The notes under the pieces were generated by a model, which saw only the letters and a list, made by a program, of their open reading frames with translations, searched no databases and had not been told where the DNA came from. This document shows positions 26,213 to 33,450 of a DNA stretch of 36,034 bases, in pieces. Both the position numbers and the translations under genes were made by a program. How positions within the stretch are numbered: the first letter of the stretch is position 1; every line of letters starts with the position of its first letter. This stretch comes from Clostridiales bacterium (GTDB lineage Bacteria; Bacillota; Clostridia; Saccharofermentanales; Saccharofermentanaceae), in contig JAGCGK010000183.1 of assembly GCA_017649645.1 (NCBI GenBank), forward strand, positions 1-36,034, read 5' to 3'.

Positions 26213-27223
26213 ATGTCCAGATCAGTAAACATTCCGGAGGGCTACAAGTCACATCTTTCCCTTCGTGAGACACAGCATGCTATAAAGCAGATCAAAGACA
26301 CTTTCCAACAGTCATTGTCATTTGCTCTCACTCTCGACCGTGTAACAGCACCTTTGATCGTTCCTAAGGACAGCGGTATCAACGACGACCTTAACGGCGT
26401 TGAGCGTAAGGTCGAGTTCTCCATCAAGGAGATCGAGACTAATGCAGAGGTCGTTCAGTCCCTCGCCAAGTGGAAGCGTATGGCTCTCTACCGTTACGGC
26501 TATAAGCCGGGTGAAGGCATCTACACAGACATGAACGCCATCCGCCGCGACGATAACGTAGACAACATCCACAGCATCTTCGTAGATCAGTGGGACTGGG
26601 AAAAAGTCATCACAGCTGAAGACCGTAACATCGAGTTCCTCAAGGACACGGTAAGAAGCATCGTTAAGGCTATCGTTTATACAAAGCGTCAGGTTACGCT
26701 TCGTTATCCTCATATCAAGAATCCGATCAACGAGAATGTATTCTTCATCACGACTCAGGAACTTCTCGACAAGTATCCTGATCTCGACACAAAGGCTCGT
26801 GAGGACGCTATTGTCAAAGAGCACGGCACCGTATTCATCATGGGTATCGGCGCACCTCTCAGTAACGGCGAGCCGCATGACGGAAGAGCTCCTGACTACG
26901 ACGACTGGTCCCTCAACGGCGACCTGATGGTATGGAACGAAGTCCTCGGACACGCTCTCGAGATCTCCTCCATGGGTATTCGTGTTGACTCCAAGTCTCT
27001 CGCATCCCAGCTCAAGGCCGCAAACGCAGAGGACCGCATGAAGTTTGAGTTCCATAAGCTCATCGCAGAAGGCACTATGCCTCTTACGATCGGCGGCGGT
27101 ATCGGCCAGTCACGTCTTTGCATGTTCCTTCTCGAAAAAGCTCACATCGGCGAAGTTCAGGCATCCGTCTGGACAGAAGACATGTACAAGGAATTCGAGG
27201 CAAAGGGAATCACCCTCCTCTGA
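26213..27223 (+). CDS. asnA: Aspartate-ammonia ligase (asparagine synthetase A)
   Basis: Predicted 336-aa cytoplasmic enzyme making asparagine from aspartate, ammonia and ATP. It is the ammonia-dependent type, itself derived from a class II synthetase catalytic core. Recognisable blocks are YGYKPGEGIYTDMNAIRRDD (about 100-119), FVDQWDWEKVI, GIGAPLSNGEPHDGRAPDYD and the C-terminal GGGIGQSRLCMFLLEK near 293-308, which corresponds to synthetase motif 3. The length is typical of bacterial AsnA. ATG 26213 has GAGG 8 nt upstream and lies 17 bp after asnS. Use of free ammonia fits an ammonia-rich gut or rumen setting. A good terminator follows. Confidence 0.98.
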   Translation: MSRSVNIPEGYKSHLSLRETQHAIKQIKDTFQQSLSFALTLDRVTAPLIVPKDSGINDDLNGVERKVEFSIKEIETNAEVVQSLAKWKRMALYRYGYKPGEGIYTDMNAIRRDDNVDNIHSIFVDQWDWEKVITAEDRNIEFLKDTVRSIVKAIVYTKRQVTLRYPHIKNPINENVFFITTQELLDKYPDLDTKAREDAIVKEHGTVFIMGIGAPLSNGEPHDGRAPDYDDWSLNGDLMVWNEVLGHALEISSMGIRVDSKSLASQLKAANAEDRMKFEFHKLIAEGTMPLTIGGGIGQSRLCMFLLEKAHIGEVQASVWTEDMYKEFEAKGITLL

Positions 27224-27247
27224 TAAACCGCATTTCCTAAAAAACTT

Positions 27248-27284
27248 AAAAACCGATTTCCTGTTGCGGGAAGTCGGTTTTTTG
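27248..27284 (+). terminator. Intrinsic terminator of asnS-asnA
   Basis: CCGATTTCC (27253-27261) pairs with GGAAGTCGG (27269-27277) with one G-U pair around a 7-nt loop. A-rich flank and six T follow. Confidence 0.92.
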
Positions 27285-27317
27285 TCGTTTGTATTGTTAT
27301 TTAATAAACAATATAAA

Positions 27318-27346
27318 TTGACATTTACACTTCTAAATTTTATACT
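27318..27346 (+). promoter_or_regulatory. Promoter of the first esterase-DUF4214 gene
   Basis: Perfect TTGACA (27318-27323), 17-bp spacer, TATACT (27341-27346). The spacer begins TTTACACTTCTAAA, which is the reverse complement, with one mismatch, of the segment in the same place in the promoter at 29542. A TACATATGTT box (27346-27355) overlaps the -10 end and resembles a TACANNTGTA operator with one mismatch. Confidence 0.85.
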
Positions 27347-27352
27347 ACATAT

Positions 27353-27434
27353 GTTTCTGAACATTTTGAGTTTGTATGGTCAGAAGCAGGAAGATTATGA
27401 GAAAACTGGGCTGCTAGTGTTCCCGGTATTTTTT
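27353..27434 (+). promoter_or_regulatory. Candidate structured RNA leader with terminator-like hairpin (copy R1)
   Basis: The transcript should begin near 27353. GTTTCTGA (27353-27360) pairs with TCAGAAGC (27380-27387), 8 bp with one G-U, enclosing a 19-nt loop containing GAGTTTG (27368-27374). AACATT (27360-27365) can also pair with AGTGTT (27416-27421). ACTGGG (27405-27410) and CCCGGT (27422-27427) form a hairpin followed by A and six T, as in attenuation. The same stem geometry and GAGTTTG core recur twice before the related gene at 29803, with different stem sequence. I recognise no known riboswitch class. Confidence 0.55.
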
Positions 27435-27472
27435 CACATTAACAATTTAATACCAGAGTTTGGGAGAATCTT

Positions 27473-29476
27473 ATGGGAAAGAGATTAATAAGACTCCTTT
27501 CTGCCGTTATCGCTGTTGTTATCACAATGGCGTCTTTTGTATTCGCGCAAGATACAAAAGCAGCTGTTGCGTACACGTATGACGGCACAGTAAAGGATTA
27601 TACGATCGAGAAAACATATAATTACGGAAAATATTTCGAACCTTCGGAAGACGGCAAATATCAGGTCCTTATCTATGTGCACGGCTCAGGTGAAACCGGC
27701 GGATGCGGCCAGGGCAATATGCCTTCAGGTCTTTTGAATCTGATGAACAAATGGATATTTAATGGTTACTGCGAACCTTTTGTTGTAATATGTCCAAGGA
27801 TCGAACAGATCAAGGAAAAGAAATGGGGCATCACCGATTTCGGAGAGTTTGTTACCGAAGGTTATCTCGAGAAACTCGTCGAGGAGATCAAGGCAGGAAA
27901 TATCTCTTCCAAGGTGGATACCAGTAAGCCGATCGCTATCGCTGGTTATTCAATGGGCGGGGCAGTGGCTTTGTGTGCAGGTGCCAAGTTTTCCGATACC
28001 TTCTACAACGTCGGATCTATCAGCCCGTCCTGGTGCTGCTATAACGGAAGTTCGCAATCATATCTTAAGTCGGCATCGGAACTTGTTTTCAATCAGGATC
28101 TGGAAGGACACTATCTTATGTCCTACGGCGAAGGAGAGGATGCACAGTTTGGCCAAAATGTTGAGAGATATAAAGGTTATATAGAAGGCAACAAAGAAAA
28201 CAAAGAAGGCCTTTTCAAATTCCGCTCCTATGATAAAAGTTACGGAGCCCACGGCTGGAAAGTCTTCATGATGGGCACCTTCGAGTTCCTATTCTATATG
28301 AGAAATGACTGCCTGCCGACCCCTGAGATGATCGATACTGCTTGTAACGGTGCAAAAACAGGACTATACGGCAATGCATATATAAAGGGAACAGCTACTC
28401 CGGGTAACACTCTTACCGCATATGTCGGCTCCAGTAATGCTGATAATTTCAATTACCAGTGGCTCCGTAATAACGAGCCGGTCGACGGCGCGACATCAAA
28501 GACCTATACCCTGACAAGTGCTGATTCAGGAGCGAAGATAAGATGCAAGCTTACCGATAAAGATGGTGTTTACAAAGGTTATTTCTTTACCGAAAAAGTT
28601 GAGGTAAGTGCTCCGAGTGCCGTGCCTACCATAACTACCAGCCCGACTGTAACGACAAAGCCTACAGGCGGTGCTTCTTCGGGAAGCGGTAATGTTCCTA
28701 CACCTGGCGGAAGCAGAGGTGCATCATCCAAGGAGGATATCTCCAAGTTTGTAGATAATATCTATACCAGTGTTCTCGGCCGAGATGCCGAACCGGAAGG
28801 TGCCGAGTTCTGGTTTAACGAGTTGTGGAACTTCAAATGTTCCGGTGACGAAGTAGCATTGGGATTCATTAACAGTAAAGAATTCAGAGACCGTAATCTC
28901 TCTGATGAGGATTATGTGAAGGTTTTATATAAGGCTTTCTTCGACCGTGATCCTGATGACAGCGGCATGAAGTTCTGGCTCGACTCACTGTCTAATGGAA
29001 CTCTTGACCGTAAGGCAGTCGCCAATAATTTCGTATACTCACAGGAGTGGGCTGACACCTGTGCCACATACGGCATAAGATGCGGTGGAAGTATCAAAGC
29101 CAAGGTTAATATCACTCCTTCAGATTCGACATATGCATTCGTAGAGAGAATGTATGTAACTGCTCTCGGAAGAGCATCTGATGAGGGCGGTAAAGAGTTC
29201 TGGGCTAATGAACTTTCTAACTACAGATGCACGGGTGAGGAGTTGGGCGTACAGTTCTTCCTGAGTAAAGAGATGGAGGATCTCAATATCTCGGACGAAG
29301 AGTTCGTTGACCGTCTTTATAAGACGTTTATGGACCGTGATGCAGAGCCTGACGGCAAGACATTCTGGCTTAAGAGCCTGGCGGACGGGGCTTCCAGAAA
29401 ATCCGTTGTCCTGGGCTTTACGAGAAGCGAAGAATTTGTCGGAAGATGTATAACAGAAAGAATACTTCCTTATTGA
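27473..29476 (+). CDS. Secreted esterase-like alpha/beta hydrolase with Ig-like and DUF4214 domains
   Basis: Predicted 667-aa exported protein from ATG 27473 (GGGAGA upstream). The signal peptide covers about 1-31. The hydrolase domain (about 35-290) resembles secreted carbohydrate-esterase or peptidase-like alpha/beta hydrolases: oxyanion-loop segment YVHGSGETGG (68-77), nucleophile Ser160 in GYSMGG, and likely catalytic His260 in YGAHGW. An Ig-like module spans about 300-380 (YQWLRNNEPVDGATSKTYTL), then a Thr/Pro/Gly linker to about 420. DUF4214-type repeats follow (about 424-665), with recurring FVDNIYTSVLGRD and FWFNEL patterns. There is no sortase motif or lipobox, so surface attachment, if any, would be through DUF4214. 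The substrate is unknown; a plant-polymer ester is plausible but inferred. Paralogue of 29803-33450. Confidence 0.9.
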   Translation: MGKRLIRLLSAVIAVVITMASFVFAQDTKAAVAYTYDGTVKDYTIEKTYNYGKYFEPSEDGKYQVLIYVHGSGETGGCGQGNMPSGLLNLMNKWIFNGYCEPFVVICPRIEQIKEKKWGITDFGEFVTEGYLEKLVEEIKAGNISSKVDTSKPIAIAGYSMGGAVALCAGAKFSDTFYNVGSISPSWCCYNGSSQSYLKSASELVFNQDLEGHYLMSYGEGEDAQFGQNVERYKGYIEGNKENKEGLFKFRSYDKSYGAHGWKVFMMGTFEFLFYMRNDCLPTPEMIDTACNGAKTGLYGNAYIKGTATPGNTLTAYVGSSNADNFNYQWLRNNEPVDGATSKTYTLTSADSGAKIRCKLTDKDGVYKGYFFTEKVEVSAPSAVPTITTSPTVTTKPTGGASSGSGNVPTPGGSRGASSKEDISKFVDNIYTSVLGRDAEPEGAEFWFNELWNFKCSGDEVALGFINSKEFRDRNLSDEDYVKVLYKAFFDRDPDDSGMKFWLDSLSNGTLDRKAVANNFVYSQEWADTCATYGIRCGGSIKAKVNITPSDSTYAFVERMYVTALGRASDEGGKEFWANELSNYRCTGEELGVQFFLSKEMEDLNISDEEFVDRLYKTFMDRDAEPDGKTFWLKSLADGASRKSVVLGFTRSEEFVGRCITERILPY

Positions 29477-29494
29477 TAATAGCCTTTAACATTT

Positions 29495-29530
29495 TAAAGT
29501 CGTCGCATCAAAAATGCGGCGACTTTTTTA
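29495..29530 (+). terminator. Intrinsic terminator
   Basis: AAGTCGTCGCAT (29497-29508) pairs with ATGCGGCGACTT (29514-29525), 12 bp with one G-U, around a 5-nt loop and followed by a T-run. It is the first element in the 326-bp gap between the two esterase genes. Confidence 0.93.
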
Positions 29531-29541
29531 TTCAAACAGAA

Positions 29542-29570
29542 TTGACATTTAGAAGTGCAAAAACTATACT
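29542..29570 (+). promoter_or_regulatory. Promoter of the second esterase-DUF4214 gene
   Basis: Perfect TTGACA (29542-29547), 17-bp spacer, TATACT (29565-29570), the same as at 27318. The spacer begins TTTAGAAGTGCAAA, the inverted form of the spacer element of the first promoter. The transcript should start near 29577, giving a leader of about 226 nt. Confidence 0.85.
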
Positions 29571-29575
29571 ACAAG

Positions 29576-29755
29576 CGTCTGCAGTTACTTACGAGTTTGG
29601 GTGATTGTAGACGGGAAGAAATGAGATGCTGAGTAACTAGAGTTATTTAGTTTTTTCACCGTACAATTTTATATTGAGAACGTTTTCGAGCATTTTAGAG
29701 TTTGTGTGAACGAATACGGGGATCTGTGAGACTGAGTGACAAGAGTTATTTAGTT
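29576..29755 (+). promoter_or_regulatory. Candidate tandem structured RNA leader (copies R2 and R3)
   Basis: Two units about 105 bp apart. In R2, CGTCTGCA (29576-29583) pairs with TGTAGACG (29606-29613), with GAGTTTG at 29593. In R3, CGTTTTCG (29681-29688) pairs with CGAATACG (29711-29718, one mismatch), with GAGTTTG at 29698. GAGTTTG starts 17 nt after the stem start in both. Each 3' arm is followed by a G-rich GGRA segment and later by AGAGTTATTTAGTT (29639 and 29742). In R2, AGTTACT (29583-29589) can pair with AGTAACT (29632-29638), a pseudoknot-like arrangement. The latter overlaps the 5' arm of a small hairpin (AACTA/TAGTT, 29635-29652) followed by T, suggesting alternative folds. The rest of the gap to 29802 holds only the ribosome site. 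Confidence 0.55.
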
Positions 29756-29802
29756 CTGTTCTTGGTAATTATTTAATGGTTAGTATTTAGGAGACGTTTT
29801 TT

Positions 29803-32800
29803 ATGAAAGGAAGACTATTGAGAATTCTGTCTGCCGTTGTTGCCGTACCGATAATCGCGACCTCGATGATTTTCGCGAATGATGTAAAGGCAGCACCGAA
29901 GACATATAACGGTACGATCGAGACGTACACACGTGATGAGCATGTAGTTGTAAACAAAGGCAAATACTTTGAACCTGCAGCTGACGGTAAGTATCAAGCA
30001 ATGATCTATTTCCATGGTGCATCAGATCAAGTCAATGGTACGGATTTGCAAAATCTGCCGGAAAGATTGATGAACGACATGAACAAGTGGATCAATATGG
30101 GATATTGCGACCCTATGGTAGTAATAACTCCTTCGATCTTTAACACAGCTGCATGGGGAATCGAAGATTTTAAAAGCTTTGTAAAAGATGGAAATTTAGA
30201 ATCATTGATCAAAGAAATCCAGTCAGGCGAGGGCTTAGGTAAAAAGGTAGATACTAGTAAGCCTATCATCGTAGCCGGATATTCTATGGGTGCTTCAGCA
30301 GCCCTTTATACAGGTACTTTGTTTAGGAATGGTGATCCTAATGGTGATGGAATTGCTGATGTTGCTCCAATTTACAATGTTGGCGCATTCAGTCCATCCT
30401 ACTGCTACTACTCTGAGGAGTCACCCAGTTGGATTAAAGATCCATCAGATTGTATCTTCTCGACAAGGACAGACGGACACTTTTTGTTAACCGGTGGTGC
30501 AGGTGAAAATTCTTACTTCAATACCTGCTATAACACAGATAAGCGTGTTTTAGAAAAGAATGGTACTCTATTTAAATTTCACAAATACAATTCCGAATGG
30601 GGTCCGCACGGATGGGCTTGCGTATTTGAACTCGGTACTTTTGAATATCTGTATTACCTGAAATTCAATGAACTTCCGTCTGAAGAGATCATGACAAATG
30701 CAGTCTGGGGTGAGGTAACAATCTCAGGAACGACGACTGTCGGAAGCACACTGACAGCATCATTAAACACATATTACGATGTCGGAGCGAGCTATCGCGG
30801 TTATCAGTGGTATCGAGAGAACACTTCGACGGGAGCTTTTACCGCTATTTCCGGTGCGACTTCAAGTACTTATACTCTGACTTCTGCTGATGCAGGTTGT
30901 AAGGTCAGATGCAAGATCTGGGATACCAGAGAACCAAAAACACCGCAAGGAAGCGGCAAGTGGGGTTATTCATACCGTACCACAGCTACGATCTCTTCAG
31001 GCCAGCAGCAGCCGCAGGCGATCAAAGGAACGGTAACATTATCCGCTGATTATTACCGTTACGGTTATAAAGTCAGAGCTACTGTATCAGGCAGTAATGC
31101 AACAAACCTCAAGTATCAGTGGAAGAGAGGCGACTCTGTTATAAGCGGTGCAACCTCTTATGAGTATGTACTCACAGAGAGCGATATCGGTAAGCAGATA
31201 AGCTGCATTGTAACAGATAAGGACGGTAAGTACACAGGCAGCATCAGCAGTTCAAAGACAGCTACCATAGGTAAGGCATTTGGTCCTAATCCGCCGAGCG
31301 GTGTTTCCGCAGTTAACTGTTCCTCCAAGGGAGCAAAAGACGGAAAGATCACAGGCGTATCTGACAAGATGGAATATGCAGTCCAGACAAATGGTAACCC
31401 TGGTACATTTAATAGTATTTCAGGAACAACAGTCACAGGACTTGCTGCAGGAACATACTACGTCAGATATAAGGCTACATCCACGGCAGATGCGGGCGGA
31501 ATGGCAGAAGTTTATATCAAAGAGAACAGTGCTCAGGCGATCAAGGGAACGGTAACATTGTCTGCTGATCATTACCGTTACGGTTATGAAATCAGTGCCA
31601 CTGTATCAGGAAATAATGCAACAAACCTCAGTTATCAGTGGAAGAGAGGCGACTCAAATATCAGTGGCGCCACAGGCAATAAGTACAAACTTACTGAGAG
31701 TGATATCGGTAAGCAGATCAGCTGTGTAGTAACTGATAAGGATGGTAAGTACACAGGCAGCATTAGCAGTTCAAAGACAACTACTATAGGTAAGGCTTTT
31801 GGTCCTAACCCACCGAGTGGTGTTTCCGCAGTTAACTGTTCTTCTAAGGGAGCAAAAGACGGAAAGATCACAGGCGTATCTGACAAGATGGAATATGCAG
31901 TCCAGACAAATGGTAACCCTGGTACATTCAAGAGTATTTCCGGTACTTCGGTTACGGGACTTGCAGCCGGAACATACTATGTAAGATATAAGACTACTTC
32001 AACGGCAGATGCAGGTGGAATGGCTGAAGTTTACATCAAAGACGGTGCTGCTCAGTCGATCAATGGAACGGTAACATTATCCGCTGACCACTACCGTTAC
32101 GGTTATAAGGTAAGTGCAACTGTATCAGGCAGTAATGCAACAAACCTCAAGTATCAGTGGAAGAGAGGCGACTCAGTTATCTCTGGTGCAACCTCTTATG
32201 AGTATGTGCTCACAGAGAGTGATATCGGTAAGCAGATCAGCTGTGTTGTAACTGATAAAGATGGTAAGTACACAGGCAGCATCAGCAGCTCAAAGACAAC
32301 TACTATAGGTAAGGCTTTCGGTGCTAAAGCTCCTACAGGTCTTGCAGGTATTAACTGTTCCTCTAATGGCGCTAAGGACGGAAAGATCCTGAATGTGTCA
32401 GATAAGATGGAATACACAGTTCTTACTAACGGTAAGCCGGGTACATATACAAGTATTTCCGGATCTTCGATCACAGGACTTGCTGCGGGAACTTACTATA
32501 TCAGATATAAGGAGACTTCCACAGCTGATGCCGGTGCTAATGCCGAGATAACTATCAATGTAAAGGCTTCAAATGTAACAGCTACACCAACAGTAACAGC
32601 AGCACCTACTACAACTGCTACTGATACTGCAGTACAGACAGTTACAACTGCTCCTACAGCTACAACAACTACTGCTACGAGTACATCACCTAATGACCAG
32701 ATCTCTGCTTTCGTAGATCGTCTCTATTTGAGCGTTCTCGGAAGAGAGGCTGATGAAGATGGTGCTAAATATTGGACAAACGAGCTCGTTTCATTCAGGA

Positions 32801-33450
32801 TGTCAGGTGCACAGGTTGCAGAGAAGTTTGTTCTCAGCCCTGAGTTCCTTGGTTCCGTTGAAAATGATACTCAATTCGTAACTGTTCTTTACAAGGCATT
32901 CTTCAATCGTGATCCTGACGATGACGGACTTGCTTATTGGACAAAAGCACTTAGTGACAAGACAATGACAAGAGAAGAAGTAGAAAGAAACTTCGTATAT
33001 TCTCAGGAGTGGGCAGATACATGTGCTGAATACGGAATCCTTTCGGGAAGCACAGTTAAGCCTTCCAAATCCATTGATCCGACTGAAGCAACTCTTGCTT
33101 TCGTTGAGAGAATGTACACTAAGGCAATGAATCGTGAATCTGATCCTGAAGGTAAGGCATATTGGGCTAATAGACTTGCTAACTACGAGTGCACAGGTGA
33201 GACTATCGGTCTCGAGTTCTTTACCAGCGCAGAGATGAAGGGCTATAACCTTGATAACGAAGAATTCGTAAAGAGACTTTATAGCACATTCATGGATCGT
33301 GATGCTGATTCAACAGGTCTTTCATTCTGGATAAATGAACTTGAGAACGGCGCTGATCGTGCAGAGGTCGTAAAGGGATTTGCAAAGAGCGCTGAGTTTG
33401 AGCAGAGATGTATCGAAGCAAGGATCCTTCCTTGCGAGGGTTTATTCTAA
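29803..33450 (+). CDS. Large secreted esterase-like hydrolase with repeated Ig-like modules and DUF4214 domains
   Basis: Predicted 1215-aa exported protein from ATG 29803 (AGGAG 9 nt upstream). The signal peptide is about 1-31. The hydrolase domain (about 35-300) has IYFHGASDQ as oxyanion segment, Ser161 in GYSMGA and His269 in WGPHGW. The final Gly of the GYSMGG box in its paralogue is Ala here. One Ig-like module (about 303-398) is followed by three tandem 173-residue units (about 407-925). Each unit pairs an Ig-like part (YQWKRGDSVISGATSYEY) with a second part ending GLAAGTYYVRYK. A Thr/Ala linker leads to DUF4214-type repeats (about 968-1205; FVDRLYLSVLGREADEDG). It is twice the length of its neighbour mainly through these units. 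No wall anchor motif is seen. It may act on or bind extracellular polymers. Confidence 0.9.
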   Translation: MKGRLLRILSAVVAVPIIATSMIFANDVKAAPKTYNGTIETYTRDEHVVVNKGKYFEPAADGKYQAMIYFHGASDQVNGTDLQNLPERLMNDMNKWINMGYCDPMVVITPSIFNTAAWGIEDFKSFVKDGNLESLIKEIQSGEGLGKKVDTSKPIIVAGYSMGASAALYTGTLFRNGDPNGDGIADVAPIYNVGAFSPSYCYYSEESPSWIKDPSDCIFSTRTDGHFLLTGGAGENSYFNTCYNTDKRVLEKNGTLFKFHKYNSEWGPHGWACVFELGTFEYLYYLKFNELPSEEIMTNAVWGEVTISGTTTVGSTLTASLNTYYDVGASYRGYQWYRENTSTGAFTAISGATSSTYTLTSADAGCKVRCKIWDTREPKTPQGSGKWGYSYRTTATISSGQQQPQAIKGTVTLSADYYRYGYKVRATVSGSNATNLKYQWKRGDSVISGATSYEYVLTESDIGKQISCIVTDKDGKYTGSISSSKTATIGKAFGPNPPSGVSAVNCSSKGAKDGKITGVSDKMEYAVQTNGNPGTFNSISGTTVTGLAAGTYYVRYKATSTADAGGMAEVYIKENSAQAIKGTVTLSADHYRYGYEISATVSGNNATNLSYQWKRGDSNISGATGNKYKLTESDIGKQISCVVTDKDGKYTGSISSSKTTTIGKAFGPNPPSGVSAVNCSSKGAKDGKITGVSDKMEYAVQTNGNPGTFKSISGTSVTGLAAGTYYVRYKTTSTADAGGMAEVYIKDGAAQSINGTVTLSADHYRYGYKVSATVSGSNATNLKYQWKRGDSVISGATSYEYVLTESDIGKQISCVVTDKDGKYTGSISSSKTTTIGKAFGAKAPTGLAGINCSSNGAKDGKILNVSDKMEYTVLTNGKPGTYTSISGSSITGLAAGTYYIRYKETSTADAGANAEITINVKASNVTATPTVTAAPTTTATDTAVQTVTTAPTATTTTATSTSPNDQISAFVDRLYLSVLGREADEDGAKYWTNELVSFRMSGAQVAEKFVLSPEFLGSVENDTQFVTVLYKAFFNRDPDDDGLAYWTKALSDKTMTREEVERNFVYSQEWADTCAEYGILSGSTVKPSKSIDPTEATLAFVERMYTKAMNRESDPEGKAYWANRLANYECTGETIGLEFFTSAEMKGYNLDNEEFVKRLYSTFMDRDADSTGLSFWINELENGADRAEVVKGFAKSAEFEQRCIEARILPCEGLF
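31021..32577 (+). repeat. Three tandem 519-bp in-frame repeats
   Basis: Units start at 31021, 31540 and 32059, each exactly 519 bp (173 codons). Units 1 and 2 share an uninterrupted block of more than 80 identical bases in their second half, while units 1 and 3 are more alike in the first half. The mosaic indicates exchange between units. Confidence 0.9.

Follow-up and report, generated by a model that had tools for sequence, protein, structure and literature searches.

A candidate structured RNA leader, with a conserved loop and a terminator-like hairpin, upstream of secreted esterase-like genes in a narrow lineage of Clostridia

The stretch analysed here (hereafter the window) comprises 36,034 nucleotides of a Clostridiales bacterium of the family Saccharofermentanaceae (GenBank assembly GCA_017649645.1, contig JAGCGK010000183.1, positions 1 to 36,034 of the forward strand). 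It contains two paralogous genes whose products carry DUF4214 repeats, and in their leaders a first-pass annotation, made from the sequence alone, had pointed to a candidate structured RNA, present in one copy before gene 1 (R1) and in two tandem copies before gene 2 (R2 and R3). Each copy combines a hairpin with the loop motif GAGUUUG (P1) and, 3' of it, a second hairpin resembling a terminator (P2). The genes, predicted promoters and hairpins of the locus are the following:

27318..27346, + strand: promoter of the R1 leader, TTGACA-17-TATACT, 11 of 12 consensus bases
27352..27388, + strand: P1 hairpin of R1, arms 27353-27360 and 27380-27387, GAGTTTG loop 27368-27374
27398..27436, + strand: P2 terminator-like hairpin of R1, T-run 27429-27434, 4 of 300 shuffles fold as well
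27473..29476, + strand: gene 1, secreted esterase-like protein with DUF4214 repeats, 667 amino acids, leader R1
29542..29570, + strand: promoter of the R2 leader, TTGACA-17-TATACT, 11 of 12 consensus bases
29576..29613, + strand: P1 hairpin of R2, arms 29576-29583 and 29606-29613, GAGTTTG loop 29593-29599
29622..29658, + strand: P2 terminator-like hairpin of R2, T-run 29651-29656, 0 of 300 shuffles fold as well
29681..29718, + strand: P1 hairpin of R3, arms 29681-29688 and 29711-29718 with one T-T mismatch, GAGTTTG loop 29698-29704
29732..29753, + strand: core of the P2 hairpin of R3, T-run interrupted, 53 of 300 shuffles fold as well
29803..33450, + strand: gene 2, longer paralogue of gene 1, 1215 amino acids, leaders R2 and R3

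Gene 1 matches the Pfam Esterase family, and the two proteins are 44% identical over 388 aligned N-terminal positions and 54% identical over 246 positions of the C-terminal part. R1 and R2 sit directly 3' of near-consensus promoters, so that P1 lies at the predicted start of the transcript, as the first-pass annotation had proposed. No promoter of the TTGACA-17-TATACT type was found for R3 by the promoter scan, and this copy is located inside the R2 transcript. Because of these near-consensus promoters, and because a terminator scan of the window placed terminators upstream of both leaders (27248-27282 and 29496-29526), each leader probably opens a transcript of its own.

A covariance model was built from R1, R2 and R3 together with a fourth leader, that of a homologue from genome G038 with 66% identity. 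Among 85 genomes of the genus, seven strong copies were detected in three (three copies in the window, three in G084 and one in G038), with E-values from 1.6e-12 to 0.0012; the next match stood at 0.035, and 10 of the 85 genomes had a match at E<=1. The tandem arrangement described for the longer gene was also found in G084. Wider searches over nested sets added no strong copy (3 of 115 genomes of the family; 3 of 188 genomes of the order, searched with a seven-sequence model), all searches over more than 40 genomes having used stricter filters, with only part of the first-look candidates scored. A more permissive search of 30 genomes returned the same seven copies, followed by a gap in score from 50.6 to 22.2 bits. 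Of the two outcomes that had been anticipated for such a search, compensatory changes were indeed found (see below), whereas copies upstream of unrelated genes were not: in the 188 order genomes, under the strict filters and partial scoring just mentioned, strong matches occur only before this paralogous gene family.

The weaker matches do not extend this distribution. The surroundings of all eight further matches in the order (E 0.0017 to 0.038) appear by eye, with no frame test, to be mostly coding, and among the five with alignments one retains a loop like that of P1, though mismatched and situated within a repeat. More generally, the weak matches displayed (E 0.0017 to 3) were set aside as mostly coding by eye, again with no frame test, as devoid of the loop or as lying within repeats. 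The best covariance score in 20 stretches around DUF4214 genes of genome G000 (200,817 bases) was 14.3 bits. This genome displays a large DUF4214 expansion, with at least 150 matches above the family cut-off (150 of 253 first-look candidates scored), many of them in clustered long open reading frames. A pattern scan retrieved five stretches from genome contigs and none from viral contigs; two of the five were taken as G084:C3 and G038:C31 (CAMYXL010000003.1 and CAMVBS010000031.1), and the other three, from Pyrinomonadaceae, Planctomycetota and Limnobacter records, were presumed to be chance matches.

A covariance-model scan of the window with Rfam 15 gave no family at or above its gathering cut-off, in agreement with the first-pass annotation, which had recognized no class in the element. 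At E-values up to 5, six sub-threshold matches were obtained in 27200-29850, none of them over P1 on the + strand, and the preQ1 model was absent from the Rfam matches of both the window and this interval. The element was likewise not found among the matches listed for literature on DUF4214, structured-RNA surveys, ribosome-mediated attenuation and preQ1, papers seen in part, which does not establish its absence from print. Judged from sequence, these leaders constitute a sound candidate for an RNA family of narrow distribution, without Rfam 15 match.

By itself, GAGTTTG is no rarer than expected by chance (seven occurrences on both strands of the window versus 5.35 expected), and the evidence therefore resides in the stem surrounding it. 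P1, which comprises 12 pairs and the GAGUUUG loop, is conserved across the seven copies of the three genomes: 89.3% of 84 cells (seven copies by 12 pairs) can pair, versus 79.6% in shuffles (0 of 500 as high), or 75 of 82 cells when R3 of G084 is gapped by hand, and controls with a slid stem do not exceed 50%. Moreover, 7 of the 12 pairs have changed on both sides with pairing kept, versus 3.6 in shuffles (2 of 500 as high), although seven copies drawn from three genomes and three paralogous positions do not amount to seven independent tests, and the same sequences served to derive the structure. The first-pass description of three leader segments whose arms change while remaining complementary around a GAGTTTG loop, with a single mismatch in R3, is thus borne out, coordinates included, and the comparison confirms the hairpin leader as real and conserved at the sequence level.

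The individual copies contribute unequally to this signal. With a simple stem score, the number of shuffled flanks (of 2000) at least as good as the native ones was 3, 0 and 230 for R1, R2 and R3 of the window, and 3, 0, 306 and 82 for R1 of G084, R1 of G038, R2 of G084 and R3 of G084, respectively. By RNAfold energy, none of 300 shuffles equalled P1 in five copies, versus 54 for R3 of the window and 108 for its G084 counterpart. When the entire R3 unit of the window is folded, the structure of lowest energy lacks the proposed P1. Between R1 of the window and its orthologues, 4 of 24 (G084) and 6 of 24 (G038) stem positions have changed and none of the 14 loop positions, while the R2 and R3 orthologue pairs each differ at 6 of 24 stem and 1 of 14 loop positions. 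Between paralogous copies, R1 and R3 differ at 11 of 24 stem and 1 of 14 loop positions, and R1 and R2 at 15 of 24 and 4 of 14. These alignments show P1 to be a conserved hairpin in which GAGUUUG is invariant and the loop evolves more slowly than the stem.

According to alignment and predicted folding, P2 is a second, terminator-like hairpin. No more than 4 of 300 shuffles fold as well in five of the seven copies, all five inner positions are paired in six of seven (own alignment of P2), and a G-C/A-U double change separates R1 from R2 and R3. By eye, five or six T follow P2 in R1 (three copies) and R2 (two copies), whereas the run is interrupted in both R3 copies. A hairpin with T-run that resembles an intrinsic terminator, as an attenuator leader should contain, is present in R1 (three copies) and R2 (two copies) but not in R3 (two copies). 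The R1 hairpin lies where the first-pass annotation had put it, and that of R2 exists but is larger than the 29635-29656 proposed, spanning 29622-29658.

Between P1 and P2, short reading frames may be present:

27397..27417, + strand: putative short upstream frame of R1, ATG AGA AAA CTG GGC TGC TAG, behind a GGAAG ribosome-binding-like site
29621..29632, + strand: putative short upstream frame of R2, ATG AGA TGC TGA, the ATG being kept in G084
29726..29776, + strand: GTG reading frame of R3, a weak candidate, the G084 copy having neither start codon nor ribosome-binding-like site

All five copies with an intact T-run carry a GGAAG-like site and an ATG between P1 and P2; over the seven copies, the start codons are ATG in five, GTG in one (R3 of the window) and none in R3 of G084. 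The putative frames span six codons in R1, with equal length in G084 and G038, and three in R2, and their stops fall inside P2. P1 abuts the ribosome-binding-like site, and P2 begins, in the fold of R1, with pairs formed by the U and the G of the AUG. An additional GAGTTTG occurs at 27456-27462, at the ribosome-binding site of gene 1, and is absent from this place in the G084 and G038 leaders.

We also looked for alternative structures. Nested folds of transcripts ending before the 3' arm of P2 revealed no conserved alternative (antiterminator) helix in the seven copies; in such folds the P2 5' arm had a mean pairing between 0.03 and 0.37 for six copies, and only in R3 of the window does it pair upstream (0.53). 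A second, long-range pairing that had been reported for R2 does exist in the window; by our own reading, however, R2 of G084 breaks two of the nine pairs and neither R1 nor R3 has a counterpart, and it was not retained. In the ribonucleic antiterminator (RAT) of the BglG/SacY type, a protein-bound hairpin overlaps the 5' arm of the terminator. No such overlap between P1 and P2 is seen in the consensus, nor in the majority of the predicted folds.

Does the loop motif occur beyond the strong copies? We examined the 130 nucleotides before the script-chosen start of 28 homologous genes (E<=1e-10; 18 of 85 genomes). GAGTTTG was found upstream of 10 and its reverse complement upstream of 1, versus a background of 6 sense and 2 antisense occurrences in 91 open reading frames of at least 300 codons from the window and the G000 stretches, the 6 including both window genes. 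Strong copies account for five of these ten; the remainder comprises G028:C101, G075:C1 and the related G001:C7, G017:C6 and G075:C29. With related genes counted once, 3 of about 14 lineages besides that of the window carry the motif (p about 0.02 by hand estimate), which is suggestive only. In G075:C1, a stem of 7 to 8 pairs surrounds the loop (72 of 2000 shuffles as good); for G028:C101, G017, G001 and G075:C29, 728, 954, 1691 and 1656 shuffles were as good, so that none of these beats shuffles. Both G075:C1 and G028:C101 have this loop upstream of further secreted-esterase genes of the genus and may be looser relatives. In the three related genes, GAGTTTG lies 6 to 7 nucleotides 3' of a TATACT box. 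A genus-wide promoter motif TATANT-5to8-GAGTTTG was rejected (about 126 sites versus about 126 for the reversed control; hand tally, 85 genomes). For a wider loop motif, CATTN{2,3}GAGTTTGTR, 17 of the 85 genomes contained 20 sites in all (7 for the control, by hand tally); 5 of the sites are this element and most others look coding by eye. As for a genus-wide loop hairpin, 91 distinct TGAGTTTGTR sites of the retrieved loci were scored for flanking stems, duplicates and sites near an end being dropped; 5 reached p<=0.05 and 4 p<=0.01 (R1 among the four), and a broad family is not supported.

Several other leaders with related sequences were encountered. Two further DUF4214-gene leaders of G000 (L182 near 4807; L184 near 3284 and L228 near 1502) carry GTGAGTTTG shortly 3' of a -10-like box; they display no clear P1-type stem (95 and 1275 of 2000 shuffles as good), and G084 contains a near-identical version of the second. 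In L242 near 1501 (G084:C2:74244), a T-run follows a hairpin of terminator type, AGGCACCC..GGGTGCCT, which has TTTTGAGTTTGT in its loop. Genes of TetR type in G075 and G001 (L224 and L226, near 1501) have leaders that contain an AAGTCG..CGACTT-type palindrome with TTTTGAGTTTGTG between its arms, probably an operator; the TetR-leader hairpin with the same loop in G075:C9 and G001:C6 was accordingly set aside, as more likely being the operator of the repressor. Finally, leaders of prepilin-like genes (MKKI..GFTL(I/V)EM; L266, L241, L282, L236, L290, likely L277 and L289) carry ACAAACTCAATAA just 3' of a promoter-like stretch, and in G000 the complementarity of ACAAACTCAATAA with the R1 loop extends over 11 bases (own count).

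Tentatively, we propose that the element is a lineage-restricted, cis-acting RNA leader acting as a transcription attenuator. RNA polymerase would often stop at P2 behind R1 and R2, and a ribosome starting on the short frame would open the 5' arm of P2 and allow transcription to continue. P1 would be the sensor: a trans-acting factor, either a protein or a small RNA, would recognize its loop and alter initiation or P2 folding. In the longer gene, R3 would be a duplicated copy with both hairpins kept and, since it lacks a good T-run, would tune rather than terminate. In favour of this proposal are the covariation of P1, the slower change of its loop, the folding of P2, the promoters of R1 and R2, the ribosome-binding-like site and ATG of all five copies with an intact T-run, and the frequency of GAGTTTG before homologous genes. 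The first-pass suggestion of an attenuating riboswitch stands as regards a structured leader with a terminator-like P2 and a tandem arrangement. A riboswitch specifically is unsupported: no strong copy precedes an unrelated gene in the 188 order genomes under the strict filters and partial scoring, nested folding gave no conserved antiterminator, and the long-range pairing of R2 is not conserved.

Several observations weigh against this proposal. P1 and P2 can coexist, and nested folding shows no structural switch. Neither the P2 of R1 nor that of R2 was listed by the simple terminator scan; in R1 of G038, 55 of 300 shuffles fold as well as P2 (on a segment two bases short of TCA) and only one of the five inner positions is paired, RNAfold still predicting a bulged hairpin, and R3 of the window is similarly poor in this respect (53 of 300, as listed above). 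The peptide of the short frame is not conserved, the frame differing between R1 and R2, and the same bases also serve P2 pairing; for these reasons, translation of the short frame is only hypothetical. The full element is restricted to three genomes and one gene family. Finally, TGAGTTTGTR is not enriched genome-wide (105 sites in seven genomes versus about 12 expected per genome under a Markov model), its excess over the reversed pattern (17) being owing to depletion of the latter.

Some of these features would suit a passive leader, in which P1 protects the 5' end of the messenger and P2 is a constitutive leaky terminator or a structural spacer, with no regulation involved. The location of P1 where transcription of R1 and R2 is predicted to begin, the lack of a conserved switch in nested folds and the narrow distribution are all in line with this explanation; yet a stability hairpin needs no invariant seven-base loop, whereas the P1 loop changes more slowly than its stem, and we consider a passive role somewhat unlikely. 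A small riboswitch would make more direct use of the loop: AGUUU of P1 could pair with AAACU in the 5' arm of P2 as an H-type pseudoknot with U-rich and A-rich loops, stabilized by a metabolite against the terminator. Indeed, 34 of 35 cells can pair over the seven copies, the arm involved would bring this pairing into competition with P2, and no Rfam class matches. However, the loop being invariant, the pairing never covaries; AAACU belongs to the arm opposite the T-run side of P2, and this P2 pairing could by itself preserve it; a U-U mismatch is present in R2 of the window; and AAACT occurs by chance in 9% of 25-nucleotide intergenic stretches of the window (39% for a partner tolerating G-U), for which reason the loop pairing is weak evidence. 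Riboswitches usually precede metabolic or transport genes, in many lineages. On balance, such a riboswitch is improbable. A related and quite improbable possibility is a new class of small tandem RNA switches in which the U-rich loop UUUUnGAGUUUGU would engage in a triplex-type pseudoknot with an A-rich stretch serving both as start of the leader peptide and as 5' arm of the terminator; if true, one fold would control both short-frame translation and termination.

Two explanations dispense with a regulatory fold in cis. The leaders could be alike only through inherited duplication of the genes, with no RNA function, as the 44% identity of the paralogues, the similarity of their promoters and the restriction to just three genomes would allow; descent, however, leaves unexplained the paired changes in P1 (both sides of 7 of 12 pairs, 2 of 500 shuffles as high, and the slid controls), and we hold this to be very unlikely. 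Alternatively, the P1 loop could be a trans-pairing site, with the 5' leader of prepilin-like genes as candidate partner, in which ACAAACUCAA is complementary to the R1 loop. Such a complementary stretch is located upstream of GFTL(I/V)EM prepilin-like genes in five loci with the gene shown, of seven, and could form 11 contiguous pairs with R1 in G000 (own count). But this partner was found by searching for the loop itself, so that chance is a likely cause, and the R2 and R3 loops match over only 7 to 8 bases (own count); trans pairing with this partner is accordingly the explanation to which we attach hardly any credence.

If the attenuator proposed above does operate, uncultured Clostridia would control large secreted surface enzymes via leader RNA, and this compact tandem element, with its orthologues, could provide a test case for the control of a terminator by an RNA loop.

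An orphan riboswitch class is usually found upstream of several unrelated genes, even though this is not strictly required. Like orphan structured-RNA motifs obtained by comparative genomics (for example PMC2864571, PMC8632094 and PMC11109978), the esterase leader is a covarying leader RNA with no assigned ligand or partner. It differs from them in its distribution, seen here in three genomes of one genus, and in having no Rfam 15 match. The preQ1 class I riboswitch is built on an H-type pseudoknot between loop and tail. A likeness to it is the small hairpin whose loop may pair with a downstream A-rich tail, in competition with a terminator. Differences are the absence of an Rfam match, a loop pairing without covariation and the secreted-esterase context; preQ1 riboswitches are the subject of the review PMC11625349. 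In ribosome-mediated attenuators, the 5' leader of the main gene contains a terminator and a short translated frame that overlaps the control hairpin. The esterase leaders have a putative short frame and a terminator-like hairpin before the main gene. Also among the closest known systems are thus the ribosome-mediated transcription attenuators of Firmicutes, such as those of bmrCD (PMC4191407) and vmlR (PMC9226507). However, bmrCD and vmlR are drug-response genes, whereas in the esterase leaders the peptide is not conserved, no conserved antiterminator was found and a hairpin with a conserved loop stands before the short frame.

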